Assembly (NCBI RefSeq): GCF_001610895.1
Contig: NZ_CP011273.1
Location: 248,001 to 312,000, forward strand
Direction of reading: 5' to 3'
DNA from: Planctomyces sp. SH-PL62
GTDB lineage: Bacteria > Planctomycetota > Planctomycetia > Isosphaerales > Isosphaeraceae
Length of the DNA stretch: 64,000 nt
The notes beneath the pieces are model-generated. The model was not told where the DNA came from, did no database searches, and saw only the letters and a list, made by a program, of their open reading frames with translations. The stretch's first letter is position 1. Every line of letters begins with the position of its first letter. Shown in pieces: positions 5,871-18,663 of this stretch. The position numbers and the translations under genes were made by a program.

Positions 5871-7196
5871 TTACTTCTTCAGATGTTCGTCGGCGAACTT
5901 CAGGAACGCCTCCCAGTCGGACGGGAGGACGTCGTGCTTGCCGGGGCGGTAGCGGTAGGCGATGGTCCCCTTGCTGAGCGAGTCCTCGGCGGGGGCGGGC
6001 CATTCGGCGAGCTGGAAGCCGTCGGTCCCCAGCAGCCGGTAGACCGGGTCGGCGGCCTGGGCGGCGAGGAATTCGCCGCGAGGGTCGGCCCACGTGTCGT
6101 CCTCGGCGCTGCTGATCAGGACCGGGCGGGGGGCGATCAGGGCGATCAGCTCGTGCTGGTCGACCGGGAGCTTGTCCTCGTGGCCGGAGTACTGCTTGAA
6201 GTTGCCGCAGAACCAGTGGGGGAAGCTCTTGTTGAGATTCGCCGTCGTCTCGCCGAAGTTCCGGCGGGCGAGCGACGCCCCCCCTTCCCCGGAGTTGTTC
6301 GAGATCACCAGGGCGAACCGGGGGTCGTGCGCCCCGGCCCAGAGCGCCGTCTTGCCCAGCCGCGAGTGGCCCAGCACGGCGACCTTCGCGGCGTCGACCT
6401 CGGGGACGGTCGCGAGATAGTCGAGCGCCCGGCTCAGGCCCCAGGCCCACGCGCCGATGGAGCCCCACTGGTCGGGGTCGGGCTTCGTCTGGCCGGGTCG
6501 GTAGAAGAGCGGGTGGACGCCGTTCTGGAAGCCGTCGTCGAAGTCGGGGTCGATGTCGCCGTAGTACGCCGTCGCCAGCGCGTAGCCGCGTTCGACGACC
6601 CGCTCGGCGCACCAGCGGTCGGCGACGCGGCCCCGCCCGGCCTCGGTCGCCCTGTTGTCGACGACCCCTTTCTCCTGGCCGGGCCGCATCCAGGCCGTTG
6701 AGATCCGCACGCCCGGGTCGTTCGTGACGGCGTGGTTCCCCTCGAAGTTCAGCCCCAGGAACGCCGGGACGGGTCGGCCCCCGGTGGGCTGCTTCGGCAG
6801 GAAGATCAGCAGCTCCATGCGGGGGGCGTCGGCCCCTTCGCCGAACTTGATCGTCACCTCGCGACGGATCGCCTTGCCGCCGAGCGCCTCGGGCTCCTCC
6901 GAGACGACCTCGTGGGAGATCGGGATGGGCTGAGAGGGCGTGGGGGTCTTGCCGTAGACCTGCGATTCGAACAGCTTGAGCAGCTCCGGCCGCCGGGCCT
7001 TCGCCCAGAGGTCGGGCGAGGTGACGCTCCGCCCCTCGGCCGTGCGGAGGGGGTCCGGCAGCGTGTAAGGCCGGACCGCCGCCTCGTCGTAGTTCGTCTG
7101 CGCGGCGATTTCCGCGTCCGGCGTCCCCATGAGAATTGCCCCCGGGGCGACGAGCCCCCGAATCATCCATATCCGGAAACGTGAAGATCTGGTCAT
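5871..7196 (-). CDS. CE15-type glucuronoyl esterase-like secreted hydrolase
   Basis: 441 residues from the ATG at 7196; the frame stays open further upstream, but that part has no signal peptide and poor composition. The N-terminus (MTRSSRFRIWMIRG ... AEIAAQ) looks like an export signal. The alpha/beta-hydrolase core has the nucleophile Ser278 in GHSRLGK, followed by NNSGEGGASLARR, FPHWFCGNF, LPVDQHELIALIAPRPVL, EDDTWADP and a late His in GKHDVLPSDW. This series fits bacterial carbohydrate esterase family 15, which cleaves ester bonds between glucuronoyl groups of xylan and lignin alcohols. The substrate here is inferred. The gene is divergent from the isomerase at 7399 across about 200 bp. 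Confidence 0.8.
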   Translation of the reverse strand: MTRSSRFRIWMIRGLVAPGAILMGTPDAEIAAQTNYDEAAVRPYTLPDPLRTAEGRSVTSPDLWAKARRPELLKLFESQVYGKTPTPSQPIPISHEVVSEEPEALGGKAIRREVTIKFGEGADAPRMELLIFLPKQPTGGRPVPAFLGLNFEGNHAVTNDPGVRISTAWMRPGQEKGVVDNRATEAGRGRVADRWCAERVVERGYALATAYYGDIDPDFDDGFQNGVHPLFYRPGQTKPDPDQWGSIGAWAWGLSRALDYLATVPEVDAAKVAVLGHSRLGKTALWAGAHDPRFALVISNNSGEGGASLARRNFGETTANLNKSFPHWFCGNFKQYSGHEDKLPVDQHELIALIAPRPVLISSAEDDTWADPRGEFLAAQAADPVYRLLGTDGFQLAEWPAPAEDSLSKGTIAYRYRPGKHDVLPSDWEAFLKFADEHLKK

Positions 7197-7398
7197 CGTC
7201 TGGATTCTCCCGGCGGCGACCGGCCCGCGCGGCGACGCCTCGATGATGATGCCCCACCCCGGCGCGCGGTGCAACCGCCCGCCGACGATCGAGCTTGCGG
7301 CCGACGGCCGGACCGCCCCCTTGTGCGGGCCGTGCGGGGCGTCACAATCGTTCGAGAGCCGACCGCCCTGCATCCCCCGACGATCGAGGCCAGACGCC

Positions 7399-8172
7399 AT
7401 GCTCCAACTCGGGATCGTGACCTACAACATCGCCAAGGATTGGGACCTCCCCACCCTCTTGCAGAAGCTCGAAGGGCTGGGCTACGCCGGCGTGGAGCTG
7501 CGGACGACGCACCGCCACGGCGTCGAGGTCGGGCTTTCGGCCGACGAGCGCCGCGAGGTCCGCAAGCGGTTCGAGGACTCGCCCGTCGAGCTCGTCGGGT
7601 TGGGGAGCGCGTTCGAATACCAGAGCCCGGACCCGGCGGTCGTCCGCAAGCAGATCGCGGACACCAAGGAGTACGTCCGGCTGGCGCACGACGTCGGCGC
7701 GCCTGGCGTGAAGGTCCGGCCCAACGGGCTCCCGAAAGGGGAAGATCCCGAGACCGTCTTCCGTCGCATCGGCGCGGCCTTGCACGAGGTCGGCGAGGAC
7801 GCCCAGGGCCAGGGGATCGAGATCCGGGTCGAGGTCCACGGCGCGGGGACCTCGGAATGGCCCGGATTCGCCCGGATCATCGAGCACGCCGATCACCCCA
7901 ACGTCGGCGTCTGCTGGAACTCCAACCCCCAGGACGTGCCCGCCGGAGGCGGCTCGATCGCCGCCAACTTCCGGCTGGTCGCCGACAAGATCCGGACCGT
8001 CCACCTCCGCGACCTGACCGACGAGAAATACCCCTGGCGCGAACTGTTCAGCCTCCTCGACGCGAGCGGCTACGACGGCTACACCCTCGCCGAGATCCCC
8101 GAGAGCACCGACCCCGATCGCGTCCTCCGCTACTTCCGAGCCCTCTGGCTGGCCTACCAACCCTCCCGCTGA
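7399..8172 (+). CDS. Sugar phosphate isomerase/epimerase-type TIM-barrel protein
   Basis: 257 residues starting at the ATG at 7399 (MLQLGIVTYNIAKDWDLPTL). The frame is open upstream, but that part overlaps the divergent esterase. Barrel strands carry typical acidic and histidine metal ligands of the xylose isomerase-like/AP endonuclease 2 superfamily: GVELRTTH near residue 35, RVEVHGAG near 145, VGVCWNSNPQD near 170, VHLRDL near 200 and LAEIPES near 235. Members isomerise or epimerise sugars or act on inositols; the substrate cannot be read here. Its position opposite a plant-wall esterase is compatible with carbohydrate use. The next gene follows after 29 bp on the same strand. Confidence 0.8.
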   Translation: MLQLGIVTYNIAKDWDLPTLLQKLEGLGYAGVELRTTHRHGVEVGLSADERREVRKRFEDSPVELVGLGSAFEYQSPDPAVVRKQIADTKEYVRLAHDVGAPGVKVRPNGLPKGEDPETVFRRIGAALHEVGEDAQGQGIEIRVEVHGAGTSEWPGFARIIEHADHPNVGVCWNSNPQDVPAGGGSIAANFRLVADKIRTVHLRDLTDEKYPWRELFSLLDASGYDGYTLAEIPESTDPDRVLRYFRALWLAYQPSR

Positions 8173-8201
8173 CGAACCTCCCCGGACCTGGGACGCCCCT
8201 C

Positions 8202-8927
8202 ATGACCCGACGCCCCCCGATCGCCGCGCCGGCGATCCTCGCGCTGCTGCTCGCCCTCGCTCCGGCCGCGTCGGCGCAGGAGCCGACCGACCGCTACGAG
8301 ACCCGGGACGTGGAGGGATGGACCGTCCGCGTGCATCGCGACCTTCCGCGCGACGAGCCCGAACTGGCGTCGCGGGCGATGTCGCTCCTGGCCGACCAGC
8401 TTCGGGCCATCGTCCGCGTCGTGCCGCCCGAGGCCGTCGCGAAGCTGCGGATGATCCCGATCTGGGTGGAACGGGCCGAGCCGCACCATCCCTGCATGGC
8501 GTACCACCCCGACGCAGGCTGGCTGCGCGAGCACGACATGAACCCGGACAAGGCCCGTTGCGTCGAGATCGCCAACGCCCGCAACTTCCTCGACTGGTGT
8601 CGCGACCAGCCCTGGATGGTGCTCCACGAGCTGGCCCACGGCTATCACCACCAGTTCGTCGAGGGGAGCTTCGCGAACTCCGAGATCGCCTCGGCGCTGG
8701 AGCGGGCGCGCGAGGCGAAGACGTATGAAAAGGTGCTCCACATCAACGGACGCGAGCAGCGACACTACGCGCTGACGAACCCGATGGAGTACTTCGCCGA
8801 GGCCTCCGAATCCCTCTTCGGCGTGAACGACTTCTACCCCTTCGTCCGCGCCGAGCTGGCAAGGCACGACGCCGAGGTCCACGCCCTGCTGCGGCGTCTC
8901 TGGCTCGTCGAGCCCTCGGATCGCTGA
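8202..8927 (+). CDS. Secreted HExxH-type putative metallopeptidase
   Basis: 241 residues. A signal peptide is evident (MTRRPPIAAPAILALLLALAPAASAQ). A zinc-binding motif HELAHGYHH occupies residues 142-150. A downstream ENxxE-like acidic stretch (NPMEYFAEASESLFG, about 195) could supply the third zinc ligand. This arrangement is like planctomycete proteins annotated only as hypothetical or metallopeptidase-like. No function beyond probable extracytoplasmic zinc hydrolase is claimed. It lies 29 bp after the isomerase gene and may be co-transcribed. The ATG at 8202 was chosen because the signal peptide begins there. Confidence 0.7.
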   Translation: MTRRPPIAAPAILALLLALAPAASAQEPTDRYETRDVEGWTVRVHRDLPRDEPELASRAMSLLADQLRAIVRVVPPEAVAKLRMIPIWVERAEPHHPCMAYHPDAGWLREHDMNPDKARCVEIANARNFLDWCRDQPWMVLHELAHGYHHQFVEGSFANSEIASALERAREAKTYEKVLHINGREQRHYALTNPMEYFAEASESLFGVNDFYPFVRAELARHDAEVHALLRRLWLVEPSDR

Positions 8928-14484: not shown

Positions 14485-14889
14485 ATGGGCGTCCGAGTCG
14501 AAGTGGCCGAGTACGAGTCTTTTGAAGTCGCGATCAGGCGATTCAAACACCTCGTGCGGCAAGATTACGCCGTGCGAGATCCCAGATGGCACAAGCGGGA
14601 TCGGCATCGGTACGAGAAGCCGAGCGTCCTCCGCCGTCGCCGTCGCTGGGTCGACACCGCGGAGCGGCTTCACCCGTACGCTCCCGACCCTTCGGGCCTC
14701 CTCGACTGGTACTTCCGGTTCGAGGTCCGGCCGCGCAGGCTTTGGCGAAACCCACGCCCTTCGAATTGGCGCTTCCTCACAGCTCGCCGTCGAGGCCGAG
14801 CTTGTGGAAGTAGTGTTCGACCTTGTCCTGATTCTCCAGGAGCCAGTCGATCGAGGGGGCGTTGTGGAGGGCCTTGCGAATGGCCTTGA
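14485..14889 (+). CDS. rpsU: bS21-like ribosomal protein with unusual C-terminus
   Basis: 134 residues. The first 55 match bS21: VEVAEYESFEVAIRRFKHLV is the first helix, followed by HRYEKPSVLRRRRRW. bS21 helps the 30S subunit bind mRNA starts. A usual bS21 is 60-75 residues. Here the frame continues through a tryptophan/arginine-rich stretch and its last 35-40 residues overlap, antisense, the 3' end of the fae-like gene by 113 bp, so the natural stop may have been lost. The start is the ATG at 14485 with only a weak ribosome site (GAAGACGCGGAAAC). A perfect terminator lies 120 bp upstream. A second, canonical rpsU elsewhere in the genome is likely. Confidence 0.65.
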   Translation: MGVRVEVAEYESFEVAIRRFKHLVRQDYAVRDPRWHKRDRHRYEKPSVLRRRRRWVDTAERLHPYAPDPSGLLDWYFRFEVRPRRLWRNPRPSNWRFLTARRRGRACGSSVRPCPDSPGASRSRGRCGGPCEWP

Positions 14890-15325
14890 GGGTGGCCTCG
14901 CGGTGGACGTCGAAGAGGGCCTTGTGGTCGACCTTCTCGACCTCGGTCACGGACGGGTCGAGCCAGACGGAGTAGATGATGCCCAGGTCGTAGACCTTGT
15001 CCCTGGGGATGACGCCCTCGCGGACGGCGTCGAGGACGCCGTTGGCGATCGCGGCCTGGACGGTCCCCATCAGGATGTTCGTGTACCTGGCGCTCTTGAC
15101 GGTGACCTTGCTGACCATGAGGGTCGCCGGGCGGACCTGGACGTCGCTGTTGAGGATCGCGAAGACCCGCGTGTGGCCCTTCACCTGGTCTCCCATCAGG
15201 GTCGCCAGGGCGGTGCCGACCGGCCCGTCCAGCTCGCCGATGACGATCTCCGGCTCGGCGCAGAGGTAGTCCTCGGAGCCTTCCACCAACGCCTCGCCCG
15301 TCCGCAGCAGGATGCGTCCGCTCAT
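14777..15325 (-). CDS. Formaldehyde-activating enzyme homologue lacking the catalytic His
   Basis: 182 residues. The Fae fold is clear: GEALV at 10-14, DGPVGTALATLM, KGHTRVFAILNSDVQVRPAT, LMVSKVTVKSA, GTVQAAIANGVLDAVREGVIPRD, and a final helix with EATLKAIRKALHNAPSIDWLL. Fae joins formaldehyde to tetrahydromethanopterin, and planctomycetes carry this C1 pathway. In canonical Fae a His sits before the IDLIIG strand. Here the equivalent position is Glu24 (AEPEIVIG), with a two-residue insertion before it. It is thus either a divergent Fae paralogue (as in Fae2/Fae3-type homologues) or has a different role. Its 3' end overlaps the bS21-like gene. No other C1 genes flank it. Confidence 0.75.
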   Translation of the reverse strand: MSGRILLRTGEALVEGSEDYLCAEPEIVIGELDGPVGTALATLMGDQVKGHTRVFAILNSDVQVRPATLMVSKVTVKSARYTNILMGTVQAAIANGVLDAVREGVIPRDKVYDLGIIYSVWLDPSVTEVEKVDHKALFDVHREATLKAIRKALHNAPSIDWLLENQDKVEHYFHKLGLDGEL

Positions 15326-16885: not shown

Positions 16886-18663
16886 GCGCCGGCGGCGATC
16901 GCCATGCGGTCGGCGGCGTACTCGTTGGAGTGGAGGGTCAGGAGCCGGTGCATCTCCTCGACGGCGGCCTCGGTCTCCTGCGCGGTGTGGCCGCTGGAGA
17001 CGATCAGCTCGGACATCGCGCCGTCGACGTGGGCGCTGAGATAGGGGACGACGCCGTCGCCGCCGGTGGGGAGCGGCTCCTTGCCGTCGTAGCCGATGAT
17101 CGAGTGGAAGGGGACGCTGGGCTCGATGGGGAGGGCGTCGATGGCCTGGAGCACCGGGTTGGTCAGGCCGAGCTGGGCGACGCTGGTGGCGTAGCGGCGG
17201 TCCTTGAAGTCCCAGCCCACGTCGTCGCCGCCGTTGAGCTTCGCCAGCGCGCCCTGGATGTCCACGACCTGCTGGGGCACGCGGATCAGCCGCGAGGCGA
17301 CCCGGCCGATCCAGGCGTCCCCCATCGGGCTGCCGTGGTGCGGCGTGGCCACGAAGACGGCTCGGCGGATCGTCGGCACCGGGGCGAAAAACATGGAGTC
17401 CAGCAGCATCCGCTTGGGTTCGTCGGCCAACACGACGTCGTCGGGCGACTTGGCGGTCGCGGCCCGCCAGAGGGCGTCGCCGCTGTCGCTGATCATCAGC
17501 CGAGTGAGCACGCCCCCCATGCTGTGGCCGATCAGGACCATCTGGTCCATCGCCGGGTCCTTGGCCAGCGGGTCCAGCTCGTCCCGGATCGAGACCAGGG
17601 ACGAACGCAGCCGCGCGGCCGAGGTCAGGATCGGATTGCCCGTCGAATAGAAGAACATCCAGAACTGATAGCGCTTGCGCAGCTCGGGATCGCCGCGAAG
17701 CTCATTGATGGCGTTGGTCCAGGCGGCGGGGCTGGACATCAGGCCGTGGACGAAGACGACCGGGATCTTGCCGGGCTGGTACGGGTCCATCATGAAGATG
17801 CCCGTCCGGCCGTCGTACTCCGAGGGGTACAGGACGCCGAGCCGACCGATGAGGTCGAGGTTGCCCTCGTGGAACTGGCGGGCGACGGGGATGGTCATGT
17901 CGTAGGCCAGCGGCAGCGGCGGGCCGCCGGCGGGGCTCCAGGTCATGTCGGGCTCGCGCACCGGGTCGTGGAATTCGAGGATCGCCGGGGGCTCGCCAGG
18001 CCCGCCGGGGCGGATCACGGCCGAGGCCCCCTGGAAGACCTGCGCGGGGAAGTGCCGCTCGGACGGGTCGCTCACGTCCAGGGCACCTTCCACGATCCGC
18101 TCGTTGTTCTCCAGGGTTCGGGCCATGCGGATGACCACCGGCGCACCCACGCCCCCCCGCCCTGCCGTGCGTCGGAATCCCTTGACCTCGAACTCTCGCG
18201 TCGGCAAGACCTCGCGCCAGAGCGGCGGGTCGTAGAGGGCGACCCTCCCGGAGACGCCGATCCCCGACTGCGCCAGGGCCTCCGTCCAGGCGATCTTCTC
18301 CGACTTCACCCGGCGGTCGGCCGTGACCAGCAGGTACTCGATCGCCCGCCGATATGCGCCCCGGCCGTCGACCGCCTCGGGCGACTCCCCCCCCCACGCG
18401 ACGGCCGGCAGCGCCTGGAGGGCCGCGTCGCGGAAGTAGGTGACGGCCCAGTCGGGATGCTTGCGGTCCAGCTCCAGCCCGGACCGGATGAGGGCGTGCG
18501 CCCGCCGCGTCCCCGCCGGCGCGATCGTCGCCGTCTCGACGACCTCGCGCGACTCCCGGCTCAGGATCGGCCGCTGGTGCACCACGATCTGCGCGCAGCC
18601 GCCCGCCGTCGCCAGGACGACCGCCAGGACCGAGAGCACCGCCGCACGCCGTGGCTGCATCAT
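16840..18663 (-). CDS. Lipoprotein alpha/beta-hydrolase (lipase/esterase-like)
   Basis: 607 residues. The N-terminus has a lipoprotein signal with lipobox-like AGGCAQ (Cys near residue 24), so it is probably membrane-anchored outside the cytoplasm. After a 300-residue N-terminal region, the hydrolase domain has PVVFVHGLMSSPAAW (oxyanion loop), nucleophile Ser381 in LIGHSMGGVLTR, and FVATPHHGSP. The likely catalytic His is in SSGHTAQETEAAVEEMHRLL. The substrate is unknown. The ending is odd: the last dozen residues are only Pro, Ala, Thr and Arg and stop at 16840, whereas the adjacent frame continues with strong coding bias to 16754. A single-base indel near 16880-16892, real or a sequencing error, would explain this. 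ATG codons at 18663 and 18660 are both possible starts. Confidence 0.8.
   Translation of the reverse strand: MMQPRRAAVLSVLAVVLATAGGCAQIVVHQRPILSRESREVVETATIAPAGTRRAHALIRSGLELDRKHPDWAVTYFRDAALQALPAVAWGGESPEAVDGRGAYRRAIEYLLVTADRRVKSEKIAWTEALAQSGIGVSGRVALYDPPLWREVLPTREFEVKGFRRTAGRGGVGAPVVIRMARTLENNERIVEGALDVSDPSERHFPAQVFQGASAVIRPGGPGEPPAILEFHDPVREPDMTWSPAGGPPLPLAYDMTIPVARQFHEGNLDLIGRLGVLYPSEYDGRTGIFMMDPYQPGKIPVVFVHGLMSSPAAWTNAINELRGDPELRKRYQFWMFFYSTGNPILTSAARLRSSLVSIRDELDPLAKDPAMDQMVLIGHSMGGVLTRLMISDSGDALWRAATAKSPDDVVLADEPKRMLLDSMFFAPVPTIRRAVFVATPHHGSPMGDAWIGRVASRLIRVPQQVVDIQGALAKLNGGDDVGWDFKDRRYATSVAQLGLTNPVLQAIDALPIEPSVPFHSIIGYDGKEPLPTGGDGVVPYLSAHVDGAMSELIVSSGHTAQETEAAVEEMHRLLTLHSNEYAADRMAIAAGAPPTPAPPAPTAPRP

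Follow-up and report, generated by a model that had tools for sequence, protein, structure and literature searches.

In the window, a 64,000-nucleotide stretch of the Planctomyces sp. SH-PL62 genome, we find a gene for a Fae3-type paralogue of the formaldehyde-activating enzyme (Fae), in which glutamates stand at the positions of the catalytic His and of the conserved Asp and the residues of the pterin pocket are kept. The gene shares its genome with a canonical Fae and with mch of the tetrahydromethanopterin (H4MPT) pathway, and we consider it probable that the protein binds an H4MPT-type pterin without carrying out the normal condensation. The Fae3 family is already known; what is added here is a residue pattern that holds across the family, and the tie of the family to the H4MPT pathway. 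The identity of the protein, its residue pattern, its clade and its company of Fae and mch are all established.

The protein belongs to the Pfam family Fae (PF08714) by score as well as by fold: it reaches 197.0 bits, above the curated cut-off of 27, over residues 9-173 of 182, and a predicted monomer made with AlphaFold from 46 sequences (mean pLDDT 90.5, pTM 0.88) matches the Fae structure 1y60_A with a Z score of 23.5 and an rmsd of 1.6 A over 166 aligned residues, the next structural matches being far lower at Z 9.5. The claim of the earlier note that the Fae fold is kept from start to end is thereby borne out. At an E value of 0.001, the sequence relatives among solved structures were M. 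extorquens Fae entries, and entries whose chain includes that Fae sequence, only. Canonical Fae (group 1) of M. extorquens (1y5y/1y60) and the window protein have this fold in common throughout, at 27-29% identity, and the latter also exceeds the cut-off of the NCBIfam equivalog for Fae, TIGR03126 (131.9 bits against 118.05). An ORF on the plus strand (14485-14889), with a weak match to ribosomal protein S21 (26.3 bits against a cut-off of 27), is convergent with the Fae3-type gene and overlaps the 3' end of the latter by 113 bases. The coordinates of the gene and of the codons discussed below are collected in Table 1.

Table 1. Position in the window of the Fae3-type gene and of its site and pocket codons.
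Feature	Coordinates	Strand	Description
Fae3-type gene	14777-15325	minus	ATG start, 182 aa, Fae fold, AEPE motif
Glu24 codon	15254-15256	minus	position of catalytic His in canonical Fae
Glu26 codon	15248-15250	minus	position of conserved Asp in canonical Fae
Lys73 codon	15107-15109	minus	pterin-pocket residue, kept
Thr75 codon	15101-15103	minus	pterin-pocket residue, kept
Gln90 codon	15056-15058	minus	pterin-pocket residue, kept

A HMMER alignment with the M. extorquens Fae chain 1y5y sets AEPEIVIG opposite AHIDLIIG, such that the His of the AHID motif is replaced by Glu24 and the Asp two residues further on by Glu26; we take these positions, following database annotation, to be among the acid and substrate contacts of Fae. 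The exchange of the catalytic His for Glu24 had been claimed in the earlier note, together with two extra residues before the motif, and both claims hold, as eight residues separate GEALV from the motif Ala in the window protein and six do so in canonical Fae. A replacement His was sought in the alignment and none was clearly found, with His51 and His171 of the window protein being mostly His in canonical Fae as well (76% and 98%, respectively). Lys73, Thr75 and Gln90 are all present; their roles in the pocket are presumed, again from database annotation, and it is their conservation alone that was examined here. After the Lys/Thr pair, canonical Fae reads QAVQMFGPAQ whereas the Fae3 type reads YTNILMGTVQ, from which we conclude that the Fae3 pocket has been reshaped beyond the acid pair. 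About 15 more positions are nearly fixed to different residues in the two types in a comparison of 139 sequences, and with so many other positions differing, pterin binding itself may be altered.

The constancy of these residues was examined in a check free of the motif, in which 61 copies were sorted by profile score: 13 planctomycete second copies from a PF08714 scan, 20 proteobacterial copies retrieved with the A1 profile (from 20 of 23 genomes that have the type), and 28 canonical loci, each the best PF08714 match of its genome. Position 24 is Glu in 13/13 planctomycete and 20/20 proteobacterial copies and His in 28/28 canonical ones, and position 26 is likewise Glu in 13/13 and 20/20 and Asp in 28/28, so that alignment with its homologues upholds the absence of an active-site His that had been read from the window protein by itself. 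Lys73, Thr75 and Gln90 are kept in all 61 copies, Fae3-type and canonical. Pocket position 55, which is Leu in all 28 canonical copies, is Phe in every one of the 13 planctomycete Fae3-type copies and in 8 of the 20 proteobacterial copies, the other 12 having Leu.

Of the 139 distinct sequences, 88 have Glu at position 24 (87 AEPE, 1 GEPE), 45 have His and 6 have Met, classes that are defined by the position-24 residue itself and are circular as regards its constancy. The scan for relatives likewise leans towards the motif, since AEPE is part of one of the two peptide patterns that seeded it. Because both the residue classes and the scan seeds involve the motif, we argue for constancy of the Glu solely from the score-sorted copies. 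The Glu is encoded by GAA in 62 and by GAG in 46 of 108 distinct DNA segments, a count that shows synonymous variation only, as the search pattern required Glu. Named genomes scanned with the alignment of the 13 second copies as query gave at least 518 relatives; the best 80 of these are 70-91% identical to the window protein over nearly the whole length, and those listed come from Planctomycetota and Proteobacteria (e.g. Methyloversatilis, Pseudaminobacter, Methylococcales). Judged from these alignments, the Glu24 state is the usual one in a large family and no quirk of a single gene. Two unusual arrangements were seen along the way. In a Fimbriiglobus MAG (L100), a second Fae3-like copy, which has GEPE, lies at 7897 (-) head to head with the normal copy at 8001 (+) and may be an assembly artefact. 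In G1065, two AEPE copies of equal score (C21:3345-3887 and 17896-18438) are 14.5 kb apart on one contig, which may be a duplication or an assembly artefact.

In a tree rooted at the midpoint only, built from 95 of the 139 distinct sequences with 44 of the 88 Glu-type sequences entered (half of the Glu class and the odd copy of L100 being left out), the AEPE type forms one clade with support 98/97, which includes the copy of M. universalis EHg5 and is apart from His-bearing Fae. Its sister clade, with support 100/95, is an AMPE type, and a branch of length 2.7 (100/100) separates the pair from His-bearing Fae. The six AMPE-type sequences (L145, L156, L157, L160, L162, L163) all come from proteobacterial genomes, with planctomycete genomes of in-between score (e.g. 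G359 and G459) outside the set in which this type was read; they have Met at the His position where the AEPE type has Glu, and the Pro-Glu after the site is common to both, at 45-49% identity. The AMPE type is the third copy in M. universalis and, by elimination, may correspond to what is named fae2 there. The 121 genomes of the G308 family, counted by score and by eye, have the AEPE type in 68 cases, the AMPE type in 66 and both in 28, with neither in 13 of the 119 that have any match. Proteobacterial AEPE sequences cluster with some of the planctomycete ones (80/100, with an open fork), within the planctomycete spread, and this nesting suggests that the gene was transferred between phyla. 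Over 15 genomes, the 36 planctomycete-proteobacterium pairs have a mean identity of 73.2% for the Fae3 type and 59.5% for canonical Fae, and all 105 pairs have 72.8% and 70.4%, respectively; within the same genome, the Fae3 type and canonical Fae average 33.8% identity.

A canonical fae elsewhere in the genome, for which the earlier note had proposed a search, is indeed present at C1:5091462-5091935, giving the window genome (6.78 Mb) two Fae genes, and mch of the H4MPT pathway is found there as well. This company is typical. A Fae match was obtained in 29 of the 294 phylum genomes examined: a lower-scoring second copy is present in 13, the high-scoring copy alone in 15, and two odd Fae copies in G051. 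When mch was sought in 37 genomes of the phylum, it was found in 28 of the 29 that bear Fae, including 13/13 with the Fae3 type, and in 0/8 without Fae. A further count, made by eye from the scores, covered 397 planctomycete-class genomes, with a best E below 1e-60 taken as the Fae3 type and at most 10 contigs as finished. All 43 finished genomes with the Fae3 type have at least one further Fae match, 21 have a canonical-type match only, and none has the Fae3 type alone, with G459, of in-between score, set aside from this count; the 14 draft genomes in which the Fae3 type stands alone are each in at least 140 contigs. In the G294 class (369 genomes), 49 genomes have a Fae match and 23 the Fae3 type, accompanied by a canonical-type match in 21 of the 23 (by score) and by mch in 22; the exceptions are G693, with neither canonical Fae nor mch detected, and G816, with mch and no detected canonical Fae. 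Five genomes of this class, of 1.0-1.1 Mb, retain both Fae types and mch. In the genome of the Zavarzinella formosa locus L093 (G302), extra Fae-like fragments lie at contig ends (L168, L169), in addition to one copy each of the canonical and AEPE types. We also looked for a link to methanol oxidation with the profile TIGR03075, whose cut-off was exceeded in none of 64 genomes; matches below the cut-off (E < 1e-50) were found, by our own count, in 8 of the 43 genomes with the Fae3 type and in 3 of the 21 with the canonical type only, and no association was seen.

In the window, the gene is preceded by a Ysc84-domain gene on the same strand and followed by a phosphodiesterase gene, and no H4MPT genes were found there by tblastn at 1e-4 with proteobacterial queries, a search that distant planctomycete versions could escape. 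We sought a conserved partner in 93 loci (82 planctomycete, 11 proteobacterial) and found none beyond close relatives, nor was there one in the 27 of 32 proteobacterial loci that were placed (L104, L105, L112, L159 and L191 were not placeable). Genes of the H4MPT pathway do lie near the Fae3-type gene, as fhc or mch, in 3 of 123 loci, all three proteobacterial, in a set in which one locus is repeated and some loci are of the AMPE type. One of the three is L181 (G1019), where fhcB-fhcA-fhcD-fhcC is followed on the same strand by the Fae3-type gene, 33 bases after fhcC, and mch and a canonical-type fae lie within the same 20 kb. There, the FTR profiles identify fhcD and the MCH profile identifies mch. 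The assignment of fhcA (amidohydrolase profile) and of fhcC (GXGXG profile) draws on profile, size and order together, and that of fhcB, which has no Pfam match, on order and on similarity to its counterpart in L164. At L164, the Fae3-type gene and fhcC meet tail to tail, and L113 has an fhc run at a distance of about 4 kb; these last two loci may be of common ancestry.

Published discussion of Fae3 goes back at least to 2013 (PMC3728764), and in 2024 the protein still lacked an assigned function according to passages of PMC11748545, whose five-group phylogeny of Fae homologues gives groups 2 to 4 no function as yet. The part of PMC5023235 that concerns M. universalis FAM5 lists fae1, fae2 and fae3, with fae3 as METUNv1_700516, fdhD as METUNv1_700257 and 4027 predicted genes in all. 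From fdhD to fae3 there are 259 gene numbers, or about 263 kb when scaled by these 4027 genes and the genome of strain EHg5 (about 4.1 Mb), in which the AEPE and AMPE copies lie 281 kb and 618 kb, respectively, from fdsD. Because the AEPE-fdsD distance in EHg5 fits the fae3-fdhD distance in FAM5, the AEPE copy of EHg5 is most likely the published FAM5 fae3, a match by gene position rather than by the FAM5 sequence, which assumes the two strains to be collinear. The EHg5 copy (L109, L147) is in the same AEPE clade as the window protein, at 71% identity, and M. universalis, though of a different phylum, has a canonical fae and mch accompanying Fae3 as the window genome does. For its fae3, expression and genetic data have been published.

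Those data, as given in passages of PMC5023235, are that fae3 is up 11.74-fold on methylamine; that growth matches that of the wild type when fae2, fae3 or both are lost; that a delta-fae1 mutant, which keeps fae3, is without growth on methanol or methylamine unless reverted; that revertants on methylamine arise from a fae1 mutant but not from a fae1 fae3 mutant; and that growth continues when fae3 is deleted in a fae1 revertant. The lack of a growth defect upon loss of fae3 indicates that its function is dispensable in M. universalis under the conditions tested. In a complementation reported in a passage of PMC11748545, fae3 of Methylotuvimicrobium alcaliphilum neither relieved the methanol sensitivity of M. 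extorquens delta-fae1 nor rescued its growth; we set this result aside because the gene used may belong to either the AEPE or the AMPE type, both of which occur in the G308 family. The change from His to Glu in Fae homologues is not described in the open-access titles, abstract starts and passages that we searched, which is weak evidence of absence.

What, then, might the protein do? The kept pocket, the invariant swap of the acid pair and the near-constant company of the H4MPT pathway together lead us to favour a pterin binder with other work. The Fae3 type would retain the binding of a reduced H4MPT-type pterin in the Fae pocket, and, deprived of the His acid, would not run the condensation of formaldehyde and H4MPT at a useful rate; such a loss of condensation fits the residue pattern. 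Pterin binding and condensation loss, like every role considered for the Fae3 type here, are inferred. It is a serious possibility, if one that we stop short of endorsing, that Fae3 uses the Glu pair for a different C1-pterin reaction, e.g. the release or transfer of a C1 unit, and candidate reactions would be the removal of C1 from a methylene-pterin as formaldehyde or its movement between folate and H4MPT. More tentatively, Fae3 might be a distinct C1-pterin enzyme, with the Glu pair in place of His and Asp and another reaction in the same pocket. A role as a sensor, carrier or regulator, binding methylene-H4MPT or formaldehyde to signal or buffer the C1 pool without catalysis, is likewise a tentative proposal: it would suit a protein whose catalytic His is gone and whose pocket is kept, and regulatory or sensing roles have been proposed for Fae homologues, as has folate-linked C1 transfer (in parts of PMC11748545 and PMC3728764), and the fae3 single knockout of M. 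universalis has no growth phenotype in the passages of PMC5023235, but Glu24 and Glu26 are as invariant as catalytic residues, where a mere binder might vary, and no gene family recurs as a conserved neighbour across the examined loci.

One might also suppose that the Fae3 type is simply a second working Fae, in which the Glu pair would serve as acid catalysts and methylene-H4MPT would still be made, perhaps at another pH or formaldehyde level. Glu could act as an acid, the pocket Lys, Thr and Gln are kept, the window protein is above the NCBI equivalog cut-off for Fae, the type occurs with the H4MPT pathway, and the induction of fae3 on methylamine in M. universalis (a passage of PMC5023235) would agree with such a role; we nonetheless consider it unlikely, since the His and Asp found in 28/28 canonical copies are absent from 33/33 Fae3-type copies, and since the M. 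universalis delta-fae1 mutant keeps fae3 and still fails to grow on methanol or methylamine unless reverted (same source, in part). Neither do we give much credence to the Fae3 type as a subunit of mixed pentamers that would alter the rate or specificity of canonical Fae. Canonical Fae is a homopentamer whose active site lies between subunits, it is nearly always present alongside the Fae3 type, and the two have a common fold, but their mean identity within the same genome is only 33.8% (15 genomes). That the change is merely a decayed copy confined to the window genome, or an error of sequencing, is hardly conceivable, as an isolated mutation or error is ruled out by the Glu of all 13 planctomycete and all 20 proteobacterial relatives, and both the synonymous variation of the Glu codon and the high, nearly full-length identity to the best 80 of the at least 518 relatives speak against decay. 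A protein that binds pterin without the normal condensation is the reading that we prefer.

A related lead comes from G051, a genome of the same phylum. There, two tandem genes (L045:5724-7145 and 7145-8623) combine a PF00701 domain, which is an aldolase domain of the dihydrodipicolinate-synthase type, with a C-terminal PF08714 domain in which the His is kept. These fusions resemble the archaeal Fae-Hps fusion but have another aldolase. No mch was found in G051 (84% complete), the Fae domain of the first gene had no match as query in 5 other genomes of the G051 class, and a PF00701-PF08714 fusion was not named in the titles or abstract starts of our literature search. We speculate that the aldolase perhaps releases formaldehyde and would in this way be tied to a domain that captures it.

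One consequence concerns annotation. Since the Fae3-type protein exceeds the NCBI equivalog threshold without having the catalytic His, automatic naming is unsafe for this family, and Fae3 alone could lead to formaldehyde activation being ascribed to a genome. The change of His to Glu and of Asp to Glu, with the pocket otherwise kept, also makes the function of Fae3 a question that single-residue mutants can answer. If Fae3 does prove to be a distinct C1-pterin enzyme, a whole branch of bacterial C1 metabolism that is annotated as Fae would be something else.
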